Below the pieces are notes generated by a model. That model did no database searches. It saw only the letters and a list, made by a program, of their open reading frames with translations, and was not told the DNA's origin. The position numbers were made by a program, and so were the translations under genes. From Sedimentibacter hydroxybenzoicus DSM 7310 (GTDB lineage Bacteria > Bacillota > Clostridia > Tissierellales > Sedimentibacteraceae), in assembly GCF_013403245.1 (NCBI RefSeq), contig NZ_JACBNQ010000029.1, forward strand, positions 1 through 38,324: DNA of 38,324 bases, in the 5' to 3' direction. This document shows positions 33,940 to 38,211 of the stretch, piece by piece; position 1 is the first letter of the stretch; every line of letters begins with the position of its first letter.

Positions 33940-33950
33940 GGGAGGATTTT

Positions 33951-34196
33951 ATGGAAAACAGAATAGGTGTAGTTGGAATCATTATCGAAGATTTGACTTT
34001 TATTGCGGAAGTCAACGAAATTTTACACCAATACGGTGAAATTATTGTGGGGCGAATGGGAATACCATACAAGGAAAAAAAGGTTAATGTAATATCACTT
34101 ATAGTTGACGGCACTACAGATGAAATTGGGGCTTTAACAGGCAAATTAGGAAAGTTAAAGGGATTAAGCGTAAAAAGCGCACTATCAAAAAAATAA
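33951..34196 (+). CDS. TM1266-type iron-only hydrogenase system regulator (putative)
   Basis: 81-residue ACT-like protein with the family core RIGVVGIIIEDLTFIAEVNE, YGEIIVGRMGIPYKEK, ISLIVDGTTDEIGALTGKLG and KGLSVKSALSKK. Members are usually encoded beside the [FeFe] hydrogenase maturases HydE/F/G and are called putative regulators; the ligand is unknown. Here it heads an ABC transporter operon instead, some 12.5 kb from hydCBA. ATG 33951 follows GGGAGG. Confidence 0.87.
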   Translation: MENRIGVVGIIIEDLTFIAEVNEILHQYGEIIVGRMGIPYKEKKVNVISLIVDGTTDEIGALTGKLGKLKGLSVKSALSKK

Positions 34197-34213
34197 GTGT
34201 TGGGAGATGTATT

Positions 34214-35185
34214 ATGAAAAAAATAAGTTTATTATTGATGTTAATCACAGTATTATTAGCTGCCGGCTGCAGCAATCAGGAGCCGGTAAATACAGAACCG
34301 GTAAATGTAACAATCGCCGGTCTGAAGGGACCTACATCCATAGGCATGATTAAAATGATCGATGAGAAGGCATTAAACACGGATAAATACAATGTTAACT
34401 ATGTGACTGAAAGCGCACCTGATGCCCTAACCGGAAAAATCATCAACGGCGAAATACAAATTTCTTCAGTTCCCATTAATTTGGCTCCCATCTTATACAA
34501 CAAGACGGGAGGAAAGGTTCAGTTAATGGCAGTAAACACCATAGGCAATTTGTACATCGTAGGAACTGACGATATAGAATCAATCGGTGAATTGGAAGGA
34601 AAAATACTCGGCATGAGCGCCAAGGGTTCTACTCCTGATTTTGCAATGAACTATCTGTTGAATCAAAATAACATAAGTGATAAAGTAGAATTAAATTATG
34701 CAATGGATCATGCTACCATGTCTCAATCGGTAATCGCGGAAGATACAAGGGTTGCACTTCTCCCGCAGCCCTTTGTTACACAGACCATGATTAAAAACAG
34801 CAATGTAAAGATTTTAGTTGATTTAAACGAAGCATGGAAAGCTGCAACGGACAATACAAGTCAGCTATATACCGGTGCTGTGATTGTAAACAAGGACTTC
34901 GCCGAAAATAACAAAGACTTTATAGAAGAGTTCTTAAAGCAATATGAAGCGTCAGTAAATTGGGTTTTAGAAAATCAAAAGGATGCTTCCTTATTAGTGG
35001 AAAAAAATGAAATTATGCCGAGTGCAGCAGTTGTTGAAAAAGCAATACCTTATTGCGGAATCGTATATGAACCGGCACATAATGTTAAAGACGGACTGAA
35101 TGAATTTTACAAAATCTTATTTGATTCTAATCCTGCTTCCGTTGGAGGTAAGCTGCCTGATGAAGGGTTCTATTTTACAGAGTAA
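34214..35185 (+). CDS. ABC transporter substrate-binding lipoprotein (NitT/TauT type)
   Basis: 323 residues. Lipoprotein signal ending LLAAGC (lipidated C19), then a type-II periplasmic binding fold (TIAGLKGPTSIGMIKMIDEK, LEGKILGMSAKGSTPDFAMN, ALLPQPFVTQTMI) like the binding proteins for nitrate, taurine, sulfonates and thiamine precursors. It begins 17 nt after the TM1266-type gene, so it shares its transcript and leader. The ligand cannot be read from the sequence. Confidence 0.9.
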   Translation: MKKISLLLMLITVLLAAGCSNQEPVNTEPVNVTIAGLKGPTSIGMIKMIDEKALNTDKYNVNYVTESAPDALTGKIINGEIQISSVPINLAPILYNKTGGKVQLMAVNTIGNLYIVGTDDIESIGELEGKILGMSAKGSTPDFAMNYLLNQNNISDKVELNYAMDHATMSQSVIAEDTRVALLPQPFVTQTMIKNSNVKILVDLNEAWKAATDNTSQLYTGAVIVNKDFAENNKDFIEEFLKQYEASVNWVLENQKDASLLVEKNEIMPSAAVVEKAIPYCGIVYEPAHNVKDGLNEFYKILFDSNPASVGGKLPDEGFYFTE

Positions 35186-35906
35186 ATATAATAAAATACT
35201 TATAGCATTATTTTGGATTTTTGTGTGGGAGATATTTAGCTTGATTATAGATCAGGAGATTTACCTCCCTTCTCCTATTACGACATTTTATGCTCTGATT
35301 GATATGTTAAAAACAACCGATACTTACATAACTATTTTATACAGCACTTATAGAACTGTTGCAGGTTTTTTGATTTCCTGTGGTGCGGGAATCGTACTCG
35401 GATATTTTTGCGGAATCAATAAGCTTGTCTATGATTTATTCAATCCCCTTATAGGAATTATAAGAACAATTCCTGTTATGTCAATAATTATAATCGCAAT
35501 AATGTGGTTTAAGGATACTAATGTACCAATATTTGTTGCATTTCTCATGTGCTTTCCCATCATCTGGACAAATACAATAAGCGGTATTAAATCCACGGAT
35601 GTTAAACTTTTGCAGATGTGTAAGGTTTATAATATTAATAGGCTCAGAATTATAAAATCTGTTTATTTCTACTCCTCCATTCCTTATATTAAGGCAGGAA
35701 TGATTTCTGCATTAGGCTTGGGATGGAAGGTAACTTCTGCTGCAGAGGTTTTAAGCCTGCCTAAATATTCCATAGGAAGATTTTTATATGATTCAAAGGT
35801 TTATCTTGAAATACCGGATTTATTTGCATGGACTTTCATAATAATTATGCTCAGCATACTGTTTGAAAAATTATTAAAAATATTTTTACGAGGTCTTTAT
35901 GATTGA
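35160..35906 (+). CDS. ABC transporter permease (NitT/TauT type)
   Basis: 248 residues, about six spans, with the EAA-like loop LLQMCKVYNINRLRIIKSVY and the typical PLIGIIRTIPVMSIIIIAIM and GLGWKVTSAAEVL blocks. I start it at ATG 35160, 10 nt after GGAGGT; this overlaps the end of the binding-protein gene by 26 nt. The longer frame has no site. Confidence 0.88.
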   Translation: MKGSILQSKYNKILIALFWIFVWEIFSLIIDQEIYLPSPITTFYALIDMLKTTDTYITILYSTYRTVAGFLISCGAGIVLGYFCGINKLVYDLFNPLIGIIRTIPVMSIIIIAIMWFKDTNVPIFVAFLMCFPIIWTNTISGIKSTDVKLLQMCKVYNINRLRIIKSVYFYSSIPYIKAGMISALGLGWKVTSAAEVLSLPKYSIGRFLYDSKVYLEIPDLFAWTFIIIMLSILFEKLLKIFLRGLYD

Positions 35907-36570
35907 ATTTATAAACGTTTCTAAAAAATTTAATGATTTAAAGGTTTTAAATAATTTTAATATCAGATTTGAAAAGGATAAAATCACCTGCTTGTTCGGA
36001 CCTTCGGGAGTAGGTAAGACTACTATTGCCAACATAGCCGCCAATTTAACAGAAATCGATAACGGAGAGGTCAAAGTAACTGAGAATGCAGTGTATTCGT
36101 TTGTATTCCAGGAGCCGCGATTGCTTGAATGGTACAGTGTGTATGATAACATTGATTTTGTGTTAAAAAATGTTTATAATTCTGATAAAAGGGTAAATAT
36201 TATCAAGGATTATATTGATATGGTTGAGTTGAAAGATTTTGAAAGCTACAAACCTAAGGAATTAAGCGGCGGTATGGCTCAAAGAGTGTCTCTGGCAAGA
36301 GCATTTGCTTATCCATCAAATGTATTGATTTTAGATGAACCGTTTAAGGGTCTCGATATGAAATTAAAACGTGAAATGATTTCACTGTTTAAAAAGCTTT
36401 GGAACGAAAGTAAAAGAACAGTTTTATTCATTACTCACGATGTGGATGAAGCGGTAACATTATCAGATTTTATTTATATTTTAAATGAAAAGCCTGCAAA
36501 AATCATTGACTATATTAATATATTAGAATATAATGATGTATCCGAGGTGAAATATCGCCTTGACATTTAG
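35899..36570 (+). CDS. ABC transporter ATP-binding protein (NitT/TauT type)
   Basis: 223 residues with Walker A GPSGVGKTT, signature LSGGMAQRVSLARAF, Walker B VLILDEPFKGLD and H-loop FITHDVDEAV. Overlaps the permease gene by 8 nt. Completes a three-gene importer. The promoter of the next operon lies across its last codons and the following bases. Confidence 0.92.
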   Translation: MIEFINVSKKFNDLKVLNNFNIRFEKDKITCLFGPSGVGKTTIANIAANLTEIDNGEVKVTENAVYSFVFQEPRLLEWYSVYDNIDFVLKNVYNSDKRVNIIKDYIDMVELKDFESYKPKELSGGMAQRVSLARAFAYPSNVLILDEPFKGLDMKLKREMISLFKKLWNESKRTVLFITHDVDEAVTLSDFIYILNEKPAKIIDYINILEYNDVSEVKYRLDI

Positions 36571-36621
36571 CAAAATTATACTACAATTATAGAAAATTAG
36601 TTTAGTGTTACACTAAACTAA
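36560..36621 (+). promoter_or_regulatory. Promoter and inverted repeat of the selenoprotein genes
   Basis: TTGACA (36560-36565), 16-nt spacer, TACAAT (36582-36587). A perfect 11-bp inverted repeat (TTAGTTTAGTG / CACTAAACTAA, 3-nt centre) lies at 36597-36621, at or just after the start site. It could be an operator or a 5' hairpin; no T-run follows, so it is not a terminator. Confidence 0.65.
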
Positions 36622-36639
36622 ACGGAAAGGAGAATTTTT

Positions 36640-36915
36640 ATGGACTTTAAATTAACTGACAGCGCAAAAGAAAAGTTATCAGAATTAAAATCAAATCAAC
36701 AACCTATTAAATTAGCTATAACCGGCTATTCCTGATGCGGTGCCGAATTAGGCATTGTTTCGGAGAAACAATCAGAAAATGATTTAGTTTACAGCATTGA
36801 AGGATTCGATTTAATTGTTTCTGAGGATTTAACGGGTGCAATTAGCGGAGCTGAAATTGATTATAGAAACGGAGTTTTCAAAAAGGGATTTGAAGTTGTT
36901 CCAAAATTTAAATAA
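36640..36915 (+). CDS. HesB/IscA-like selenoprotein (first of tandem pair)
   Basis: 91 residues if the in-frame TGA at 36733-36735 is read as selenocysteine (codon 32); otherwise two fragments. N-terminal MDFKLTDSAKEKLSELK and the block GYSUCGAELGIVSE match the A-type Fe-S carrier fold, Sec taking the place of the first ligand Cys in IscA (the G-C-S/A-G-x-x-Y-G motif). The C-terminal CGCG ligands of IscA are missing; the protein ends GFEVVPKFK. The frame after TGA keeps normal coding character to a TAA. A UGA-proximal hairpin (36754-36772) fits a bacterial SECIS. GGAGA-type site before the ATG. A pseudogene is the alternative, argued against by the paralog with the same TGA. Confidence 0.85.
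36754..36772 (+). promoter_or_regulatory. Candidate bacterial SECIS element 1
   Basis: Perfect 8-bp stem ATTGTTTC / GAAACAAT with loop GGA, starting 18 nt after the TGA; 26 nt separate the TGA from the apical loop, which contains G as bacterial SECIS loops do. A second, weaker stem (CGGTGCC / GGCATTG with G-U pairs) could form closer to the TGA. Confidence 0.75.
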
Positions 36916-36926
36916 AGGAGGAACAA

Positions 36927-37199
36927 ATGAATTTTAAGATAACTGATAAAGCAAAAGAAAAATTGGTAATGATGAAGGAACATAATGTACCTATTATGTT
37001 AACTGCATACAGAGTCGGGTGAGCCGGCAAGTCATACGGAATTGCTTCGTTGGAGCAAACAGACAACGATAATATTTACGATGTTGATGGCATTGAAATT
37101 ATCGTACCCAAGGACTTCGAAAGGGAATTAAAAGGTGTTAAAATAAACTACGGCGGTTTATTATTAAAAGATTTCATAGTAACACCATTTTATAAATAA
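36927..37199 (+). CDS. HesB/IscA-like selenoprotein (second of tandem pair)
   Basis: 90 residues with TGA at 37020-37022 read as selenocysteine, again codon 32. N-terminus MNFKITDKAKEKLVMMKE parallels the first copy, and the Sec block RVGUAGKSYGIASLE is even closer to IscA. The copies share most of their pattern but differ enough (for example the residue after Sec is A rather than C) to be old paralogs. Lacks the C-terminal CGCG; ends FIVTPFYK. It starts 11 nt after the first gene with AAAGGAGG, so the two are co-transcribed. A SECIS-like hairpin lies at 37042-37058. Possibly an Fe-S or selenium-carrying protein; function unknown. Confidence 0.85.
37042..37058 (+). promoter_or_regulatory. Candidate bacterial SECIS element 2
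   Basis: 7-bp stem TTGCTTC / GGAGCAA with loop GTT; 26 nt lie between the TGA and the loop, exactly as in element 1. Compared with element 1 a T-A pair is replaced by C-G on both sides of the stem, a compensatory change. Confidence 0.75.
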
Positions 37200-37204
37200 T
37201 CAGA

Positions 37205-37489
37205 ATGTACAAATTATGGGCTAAAAAAATAAAAACTAACAATATAGTCAGTTCAATAGTCGTAAAAAATAAGGAAGAAATATCTCTTGATTCAAAAAGA
37301 GATAAAGCTTTCAAGGAAATATGCGCTAAATTAGATATTAGTGTACCCTTATGGCTTAAAAAGCATGACTTGGAATTTTCTCAATTTAAATATGTTACCT
37401 TCTATCCTCATGATTTCGTGGATGAAGTAGATTTTGACAAACTTGAAATTGAGTTAATTGATGACGGATTGGATAAACACAAAAATTAA
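37205..37489 (+). CDS. Conserved small protein of unknown function
   Basis: 94 residues beginning MYKLWAKKIKTNNIVSSIVV, with conserved-looking DKAFKEICAKLDISVPLWLK and VTFYPHDFVDEVDFDKLEIE. I recall similar small clostridial proteins (MYKLWAK... PLWL/IWL ... F-x-D/E-x-x-F-D-x-L-E-I), all uncharacterised. It starts 5 nt after the second selenoprotein gene without a good ribosome binding site, suggesting coupled translation and a shared function. Confidence 0.7.
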   Translation: MYKLWAKKIKTNNIVSSIVVKNKEEISLDSKRDKAFKEICAKLDISVPLWLKKHDLEFSQFKYVTFYPHDFVDEVDFDKLEIELIDDGLDKHKN

Positions 37490-37490
37490 C

Positions 37491-37507
37491 GGAGGGCTAT
37501 GCCCTCC
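37491..37507. terminator. Terminator hairpin between convergent genes
   Basis: Perfect stem GGAGGGC / GCCCTCC with loop TAT right after the small-protein stop. The T-run is weak on the plus strand and better on the minus (TTAATTTTT), so it may serve both sides. Confidence 0.65.
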
Positions 37508-37570
37508 ATTACCTTTTACCGGTTAAACGACAACGAAGCAGTCGATTATTTTCAGCAATCTGCGTTTAAG

Positions 37571-37849
37571 CTAAAATCTGTTGTTGTATAATACTACCAA
37601 CAACAAGAAGAACCACAACAATGTATCCATTTCAATGTCGCAATCACTTTGGCAAACTATAAGAACTAAAAGAAGGAAGAAAAATAAAAGAGATGAATTA
37701 TCTCCGGTTCCTAATACCCTGTCATGTACGCACGGTTGCCTTAGCGGTCTTCTTTCTCCGCCTCTTCCGCCTATTCTGTCACAACCTTTATCACATTGAA
37801 TATTTAATTCTTCTACAGCTTCAATATTTTCAGGTTTACAATTATCCAT
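37571..37849 (-). CDS. Small protein with two hydrophobic FFLLL segments
   Basis: 92 residues from the ATG at 37849 (AGGAGGG 5 nt before it). The N-terminal half is polar with Cys (MDNCKPENIEAVEELNIQCD) and a Gly/Arg-rich stretch. The second half has two near-identical hydrophobic stretches, SSLLFFFLLLVLIV and TLLWFFLLLVVLY, separated by a short Cys/Asp linker. Such duplicated segments recall small clostridial sporulation or coat-associated proteins, but I cannot identify the family. Probably membrane-attached. Confidence 0.6.
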   Translation of the reverse strand: MDNCKPENIEAVEELNIQCDKGCDRIGGRGGERRPLRQPCVHDRVLGTGDNSSLLFFFLLLVLIVCQSDCDIEMDTLLWFFLLLVVLYNNRF

Positions 37850-37904
37850 AATACCCTCCTTAACAATAACATTTTTAGTTATTATATTCACCTTGATTGT
37901 AAGT

Positions 37905-38013: not shown

Positions 38014-38211
38014 ATGGATAAATTTGCATTAATATTAGTCATAATAGGAGCTATAAACTGGGGTTTAATAGCATTATTCAGTTTTGACCTTGTTGCTGCC
38101 ATATTTGGCGGACAATTAGCGATATTCAGCCGTTTAGTTTATGGACTTGTAGGTTTAGCAGGCTTGTACTGCATAACATTATTGTTCGACGAACGCGAAA
38201 GAGTAGATTAG
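38014..38211 (+). CDS. DUF378 family membrane protein
   Basis: 65 residues with two membrane spans: FALILVIIGAINWGLIALF contains the family signature G-A-x-N-W-G-L, and LVYGLVGLAGLYCITLLF is the second. Ends in a charged DERERVD tail. Widespread in Firmicutes, function unknown. AAGGAGG before the ATG. Confidence 0.9.
   Translation: MDKFALILVIIGAINWGLIALFSFDLVAAIFGGQLAIFSRLVYGLVGLAGLYCITLLFDERERVD

Follow-up and report, generated by a model that had tools for sequence, protein, structure and literature searches.

The genome of Sedimentibacter hydroxybenzoicus DSM 7310 (3.8 Mb, 71 contigs) harbors two adjacent small genes, here called A and B, each of which contains one in-frame TGA that, judged by comparison with related sequences, is almost certainly decoded as selenocysteine (Sec). 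They are situated on the 38,324-nt contig NZ_JACBNQ010000029.1, which was analyzed over its full length and is referred to as the window. The family of HesB-like selenoproteins is known; what is new is a divergent, duplicated pair without C-terminal cysteines. The best explanation, to which we give a fair degree of confidence, is that A and B are paralogous selenoproteins with HesB/IscA fold, which would use a selenol for redox reactions or for metal/Fe-S handling and belong to a thiol-stress regulon; the biochemical role named in this explanation is, taken by itself, a tentative assignment. The following features of the window are used below.

33948..36570, plus strand: upstream ABC operon, whole, from profile searches and relatives' loci
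33948-34196, plus strand: TM1266-like regulator, first gene of this operon
34214-35185, plus strand: SsuA/SaoX-like substrate-binding lipoprotein of this operon
35148-35906, plus strand: permease of this operon
35899-36570, plus strand: ATPase, last gene of this operon
36560..36587, plus strand: predicted sigma-70-like promoter TTGACA-16-TACAAT (11/12 match), which overlaps the ABC ATPase gene at its 3' end
36597..36621, no strand: perfect 12+1+12 palindrome TTAGTTTAGTGTTACACTAAACTAA, likely operator, just 3' of the predicted promoter
36624..36632, plus strand: AG-rich ribosome-binding site of A, GGAAAGGAG, judged by eye
36640..36915, plus strand: gene A, Sec-containing HesB-like protein of 91 aa (ATG 36640, TAA 36913-36915)
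36733..36735, plus strand: TGA in the frame of A (codon 32), assigned to Sec from frame and alignment
Around codon 32 of A, plus strand: motif GYS-U32-C33-GAELG, from the translation
36755..36771, plus strand: SECIS-type hairpin of A, TTGTTTC-GGA-GAAACAA, from conservation and the bacterial SECIS model
36915..36921, plus strand: AG-rich ribosome-binding site of B, AAGGAGG, judged by eye
36927..37199, plus strand: gene B, Sec-containing HesB-like protein of 90 aa (ATG 36927, TAA 37197-37199)
37020..37022, plus strand: TGA in the frame of B (codon 32), assigned to Sec from frame and alignment
Around codon 32 of B, plus strand: motif RVG-U32-AGKSYG, from the translation, with no Cys and no second Sec
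37042..37058, plus strand: SECIS-type hairpin of B, TTGCTTC-GTT-GGAGCAA, from conservation and the bacterial SECIS model
37205..37489, plus strand: conserved 94-aa ORF 3' of B, from relatives' loci
37487..37511, no strand: terminator-like hairpin closing the unit of A, B and this ORF, from a sequence scan

The sequence-only reading of this DNA had proposed two adjacent frames that are each interrupted by a single TGA at codon 32 and otherwise run to a normal TAA, which is confirmed by the coordinates and translations given above. The motif quoted for both, RVG-U-AGKSYG, is correct for B but not for A, which reads GYS-U-C-GAELG. It had also been expected that plain gene calling misses both genes, and neither of them is contained in the table-11 ORF list of the window (at least 80 aa). 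TGA serves as ordinary stop codon here, ending 3 of the 31 long ORFs of the window, hence, the genetic code is not reassigned.

The machinery for Sec insertion, the presence of which had been suggested as a check, was found in the genome. The profile matches of selD (401.5 bits, cut-off 125), selA (616.6 bits, cut-off 267.9) and selB (386.5 bits, cut-off 242.25) are all above the curated cut-offs, a tRNA-Sec with the anticodon TCA scores 63.7 bits at a gathering score of 47, and all four are organized in one cluster. The selD gene, assigned by its profile match to L018:4937-5980 on contig C67, encodes itself a selenoprotein, in which the frame AAGUAAKIG with an in-frame TGA is situated 5' of the called TTG start.

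Across the genus, copies that carry a single TGA at this same codon are found repeatedly. An alignment of 17 A and 17 B genes from Sedimentibacter and its family shows TGA at this codon in 32 of 34 rows, while the two others have TGC and TTA, respectively; the corresponding protein alignment comprises 33 rows. The family search listed 50 matches, 16 of which are outside the DNA alignment. Three of these were examined later, two being TGA copies with hairpin (G020, G021) and one a decayed copy (G008); G022:C338 was recovered via its operator, G001 was included in the tree as outside relative, G000:C12 was scanned with profiles, G023:C425 and G009:C32 matched none of the motifs searched for, and the remaining ones are weak. 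The two rows without TGA are also the only ones with a broken hairpin pair. In the first case (G006), B has TGC for Cys and a broken hairpin; no match to the SelB profile was obtained in this 97% complete genome, and its single sub-threshold tRNA-Sec match is a tRNA-Ser within a tRNA cluster. The exchange of U for C at residue 32, which had been named as a check, thus exists naturally in a genome without detected selB or tRNA-Sec. In the second case (G012), B has TTA for Leu and one broken pair, and the genome retains SelB, tRNA-Sec and a TGA-bearing A. SelB was matched in 23 of 27 family genomes; it was not detected in G010, G014 and G023, where it has probably been missed through incomplete assemblies, because tRNA-Sec is present there, and G004 has SelB and no tRNA-Sec match at 1e-7. 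Stop codons scattered elsewhere in the homologs, an observation that had been named as contradicting Sec, were encountered solely in the decayed A copy of G008 (G008:C37, L041), a genome with SelB, in which TAA occupies the Sec codon and the N-terminal part is scrambled. Moreover, pN/pS values of 0.21-0.36 before and after the hairpin (7 A and 7 B rows) indicate purifying selection on both sides of the TGA.

The TGA is followed by a conserved hairpin. Seven pairs, with G-U allowed, are possible in all 32 TGA rows, in the form TTGTTTC-GGN-GAAACAA or a variant thereof, starting 19 nt after the TGA and with a loop of 3 nt located 26 nt after it, in which the first base is G in 32/32 rows and the second G in 30 and T (U) in 2. 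A bacterial SECIS model with rules for loop, stem, spacing and energy has been given in PMC13188914, and the hairpin agrees with its loop, stem and spacing rules. The Ser codon within the hairpin is TCG in 32/32 TGA rows, a codon accounting for only 8.2% of the Ser codons in 18 window genes. Furthermore, synonymous divergence, calculated from 7 of the 17 A and 7 of the 17 B rows, drops two- to fourfold at the hairpin, namely to 0.175 in A compared with 0.571 before and 0.692 after it, and to 0.301 in B compared with 0.787 before and 0.718 after it. The hairpin of the window B differs from the common form by one U-A to C-G exchange, involving both sides, and by one U-A to U-G exchange. Covariation is sparse: two helix positions with both sides changed were seen, each in one sequence, one of them being the window B; this makes 2 of 238 cells against a mean of 0.2 in shuffles that leave kinship in, and further pair types do not exceed the shuffles, since 52 of 500 reach the count. 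In the 20 HesB-like relatives examined, inspection by eye revealed a hairpin at the corresponding position, formed by different base pairs, a feature that A and B share with the HesB-like selenoproteins of TIGR01911/NF038090.

The energetic picture is more mixed. Taken alone, the hairpin has -3.6 kcal/mol in most rows including the window A and -5.5 kcal/mol in the window B, with a range of -3.6 to -6.3 kcal/mol. When the whole 54-nt region is folded, the minimum-energy structure contains the hairpin in 22 of 32 TGA rows, not including the window A and B, where other folds win, and this region is at or below the -7.5 kcal/mol of the model in 23 of 32 TGA rows; the values of the window A (-16.1 kcal/mol) and B (-11.0 kcal/mol) both come from folds competing with the hairpin. 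Rfam searches at gathering and E-value thresholds returned no SECIS family at A/B, and a partial SECIS_5 match (E 7.4) across the A-B junction was taken as noise. Hence, the hairpin was judged by conservation, and its case is made by the fact that its sequence is conserved and is lost together with the TGA. A longer hairpin with the TGA in its base has a better energy in several A rows, among them the window A, and in some B rows. It was rejected as main element, as its loop in the window A is about 12 nt from the TGA, short of the 16 of the model, and many B rows cannot form it; this longer structure may compete with or add to the conserved hairpin.

Two other readings of the TGA codons have to be weighed. 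Genes recently broken by TGA, be it as pseudogenes or through sequencing errors, would show a stop at codon 32 in both frames as seen here, and G008 does carry a decayed copy, but the same codon is affected in 32/34 rows from many assemblies, the protein after the TGA is under purifying selection, the hairpin is conserved, and the Sec machinery is present in the genome, making such decay of A and B practically negligible as an explanation. A read-through with another residue, or a regulated truncation, could be argued from the weak energy of the hairpin and from the comparative nature of the evidence for the TGA decoding. We regard this as very improbable, given the fit of the hairpin to the loop, stem and spacing of bacterial SECIS elements, its damage exclusively where the TGA is lost, and the replacement of TGA by a Cys codon in a species without detected SelB and tRNA-Sec.

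With regard to the protein family, the suggested PF01521 search placed A above the gathering score (33.5 bits vs. 26.3) and B just below it (23.3, i.e., 3 bits under). The AlphaFold2 models have a mean pLDDT of 82.7 (A) and 88.4 (B), and their best structure matches are IscA and SufA (A to IscA 1r94 with TMq 0.72, B to 1s98 with TMq 0.75), so that an IscA-type fold is highly likely for both as far as can be predicted. In profile alignments residue 32 falls on the Cys of the GCSG motif, i.e., Sec occupies the position of the first ligand Cys of IscA as the sequence-only reading had stated. In this predicted fold and first ligand position A and B resemble IscA/SufA/ErpA (PF01521), but they have Sec instead of the first Cys and lack the two C-terminal Cys ligands; both chains stop short of these positions. 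The claimed loss of the C-terminal CGCG ligands applies to 33/33 aligned A/B proteins. Within the same alignment, A proteins have only U32 and C33 as Cys/Sec residues, with one row (G026) having U-S, and B proteins have only U32, its Cys form C32, while its Leu form has one Cys at position 64. The proposed likeness to A-type carriers stands for the predicted fold, whereas a classical three-ligand carrier is unlikely without the C-terminal cysteines. A and B also match the structure of DsrR from Allochromatium vinosum (2k4z), which has an IscA-type fold with no known Fe-S ligands and acts as regulator in sulfur oxidation; unlike A and B, it carries no Sec.

The NCBIfam models for HesB-like selenoproteins were less informative. 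TIGR01911 (HesB_rel_seleno) gave 29.1 for A against a cut-off of 66.35 and no match for B, and NF038090 (IscA_HesB_Se) gave 44.3 for A and 41.3 for B against 85. Five UGA relatives tested are also under the cut-offs of both models, hence, little weight can be placed on these scores, and their use as a sign of distance was dropped. A further HesB-like protein of the window genome, encoded separately on contig C12, contains Cys and exceeds the TIGR01911 cut-off. Matches at 1e-6 were obtained in 34 of 391 class genomes, counting the window genome, and almost all of them have a single TGA. Among the 29 class loci examined, 25 have the UxGP motif and 25 have C-terminal Cys; L078, L082, L086 and L088 have neither, so that the lack of C-terminal Cys is not unique to the pair. 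L082, from another family of the order, resembles A with its UCGA motif and no C-terminal Cys. L086 and L088 (G372, G246), with ULSM instead of UxGP and no C-terminal Cys, represent another divergent UGA branch.

The phylogenetic tree comprised 54 rows, 21 of them outside relatives, and was calculated from few columns, leaving many forks open. A 99/99 branch separates the relatives from A plus B, and B forms a single group (99/99) nested inside A, which suggests a single duplication in the A lineage as the origin of B. Matches to B at E 0.01 occur in 25 of 27 family genomes with Cys paralogs counted in, and the complete pair was detected in 13 of the 25 genomes of the genus. Of 13 related named loci, five bear the name Sedimentibacter, S. 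saalensis DSM 13558 being one of them, and the rest have broader names. The other 12 genomes of the genus yielded one gene of the pair or neither, several of these assemblies being incomplete; an obligate A-B dimer is therefore doubtful, and each protein can probably act without its partner unless incomplete assemblies hide it.

The neighborhood of the pair is stable, with the ABC operon as conserved neighbor. Genes of this operon, which encodes a TM1266-like regulator and a NitT/TauT-type ABC importer, are found directly 5' of the pair or of one member in 16 of 20 relatives' loci, two of which are cut by a contig end, in the order TM1266-like regulator, substrate-binding protein, permease, ATPase and then the pair. 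The 94-aa ORF is nearby in 11 of the 20 loci with 62-80% identity and gave no match in Pfam and NCBIfam searches; in G002 it is located apart from A behind acetolactate-synthase-like genes. Two further genes are conserved 3' of the pair in the genus, a small protein (37571-37891, minus strand) containing a pair of similar hydrophobic segments (SSLLFFFLLL, DTLLWFFLLL), and a DUF378 protein (38014-38211, plus strand; 87-91% identical). Mere membership of the pair in the ABC operon has become less plausible, because 26 of 27 family genomes have the substrate-binding protein, whether the pair is present or absent, and A is away from the ABC genes in G020, G021 and G026, a second copy in G020 being near them. 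The earlier description of the pair as its own operon agrees with the promoter predicted for it, but it has to be qualified by the position directly 3' of a conserved operon and by the third small gene that often follows.

The promoter-like site and the palindrome are both situated between the ATPase gene, the end of which is overlapped, and A. Promoter-like sites are frequent in the scanned DNA (35 found vs. 24.6 expected), and the palindrome was also called terminator-like on the minus strand. Allowing up to 2 mismatches, its 17-bp core recurs once in the window genome, the same number as for the reversed control, and the window palindrome was rejected as the operator of the genus, since its sequence differs and it is nearly alone in its genome. 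At the same place 5' of A, most relatives have TGTGAC-N3-GTCACTGA or a near form. The strict operator TGTRAYNNNRTCACTGA was found at 23 sites in 17 of 27 genomes compared with one for the reversed pattern. Fifteen of these sites are at A/B loci and the other eight near genes for thioredoxin (2), 4Fe-4S (5) and HesB-like (1) proteins: the operator precedes thioredoxin in G002 and G021 and a small 4Fe-4S protein gene in G002, and it is near a membrane 4Fe-4S protein gene in G021, G025, G003 and G009, the assignment in G003 and G009 being weak with 142-150 nt to a divergent gene. The HesB-like case, G022:C338 (L171), is a third UGA gene with UGGP motif and C-terminal Cys that has the same operator before it.

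In G002 and G025, A and a Crp/Fnr-like gene are arranged back to back, as are thioredoxin and such a gene in G020, where a related site is found between the two. This regulator occurs in 18 of 27 genomes; 14 have both operator and regulator, three only the operator, four only the regulator and six neither (Fisher p 0.039, kinship ignored), which links the operator loosely to the Crp/Fnr regulator in these sequence comparisons. In G021:C148 (L185), the Crp/Fnr gene is beside an ArsR-family regulator and an ArsP_1 permease. The search for the genus operator and the Crp/Fnr gene in the window genome returned neither, hence, the regulon argument is based on the sister species, in which the pair more probably than otherwise belongs to a redox regulon.

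Taken together, the following sequence of events can be envisaged. Sec32 would be inserted at the TGA via the hairpin and the products of the selD-selA-selB-tRNA-Sec cluster, and the pair would be transcribed from its own predicted promoter under the predicted operator. The selenol of Sec32, at the first Fe-S ligand position, would then do the work without the two C-terminal cysteines. In A, a selenylsulfide might form between Sec32 and the neighboring Cys33. Since B has no Cys, it cannot alone be a three-ligand carrier and may act together with A, as a mixed dimer that provides Se, S and Se, or together with thioredoxin. As proposed for the sister species, the pair would be under redox control in a thiol-stress regulon together with thioredoxin and 4Fe-4S proteins. 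The operator that the pair and thioredoxin have in common hints at thioredoxin as the reductant or a partner, and at a function during oxidative, sulfide, nitrosative or metal stress. A redox protein is slightly favored over a metal/metalloid trap or an Fe-S handling protein, because a second ligand is missing in B and because the operator is also found at thioredoxin in two genomes. A more specific version is rather improbable, namely a mixed IscA-type dimer, in which Sec32-Cys33 of A and Sec32 of B, as the only selenol/thiol ligands, would replace the three-cysteine site of A-type carriers. Switched on by a Crp/Fnr-type thiol-stress regulon along with thioredoxin and ferredoxin-like proteins, this dimer would use its selenolates to hold an Fe-S cluster or else a soft, toxic metal or metalloid.

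The function could alternatively be that of a true A-type Fe-S carrier, whose dimer would bind [2Fe-2S] or Fe via both Sec32 residues plus either Cys33 of A or outside ligands. The PF01521 match, the predicted IscA fold, Sec32 at the first ligand position and the operator common to 4Fe-4S protein genes in sister species are in line with this; yet the two C-terminal cysteines are missing from all 33 aligned A/B proteins, B has no Cys, and DsrR exemplifies the fold without known Fe-S ligands, so that we consider such a carrier unlikely. Less probable still is that the pair forms the cytoplasmic half of a Sec-assisted organometallic uptake and processing system together with the upstream ABC operon, similar to the SAO operon of Haft and Gwadz (2023) as described in PMC13188914. 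As in SAO, selenoprotein genes are located beside an ABC importer, whose permease and ATPase have SaoP (97.9 bits) and SaoA (150.7 bits) as best NCBIfam matches. ABC genes are directly 5' in the 16 of 20 loci mentioned above (only part of them in the two contig-end cases), and ArsR and ArsP_1 genes accompany the Crp/Fnr gene in G021. However, no Sao protein tested reaches its cut-off (295 for SaoP, 360 for SaoA, and 300 for SaoX with 19.4 for the substrate-binding protein), the ABC genes here have no in-frame TGA, and the SAO members listed in the passages of PMC13188914 on this system do not include a HesB pair. Moreover, the substrate-binding protein exists regardless of the pair in 26/27 family genomes and, counting the window genome, in 96 of the 391 genomes from the class (about a quarter), A is apart from the ABC genes in three genomes (with the second G020 copy near them), and a promoter of its own is predicted for the pair. 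A selenol-based pair for redox reactions or metal/Fe-S handling under thiol-stress control remains our preferred explanation.

HesB-like proteins are indeed a recognized selenoprotein family, as had been stated before (PMC1794560, PMC13188914, PMC11097638). They have been on record since at least 2006 (PMC1794560), where Sec-to-Cys events with remnant SECIS elements were also recorded in this family. As late as 2024, what they do was described as unclear, and a disruption mutant of the M. maripaludis homolog was reported to be unimpaired in nitrogen fixation (PMC11097638). Like these proteins, A and B are small, single-domain proteins of HesB fold with Sec at the first ligand position. In contrast to the UxGP motif of HesB-like selenoproteins, given in a 2026 catalogue (PMC13188914), A has UCGA and most B have U[AS]G without P (UAGK in the window), and the pair further differs by the missing C-terminal Cys, the head-to-tail duplication and the 99/99 branch that sets it apart. 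The tandem pair had been regarded as undescribed, and no report of it or of Sedimentibacter members was found in the open-licence literature.

Both genes are invisible in a plain ORF list. They might be useful for understanding the family. This lineage reduces the problem of the HesB-like selenoproteins to one protein with Sec and no Cys and one with a Sec-Cys pair, and a sister species in which Sec machinery was not detected provides a natural form with Cys. Furthermore, the operator in the sister species names thioredoxin, 4Fe-4S proteins and Crp/Fnr as candidate partners. Hence, the question has become testable in a genus with at least one culture-collection strain.
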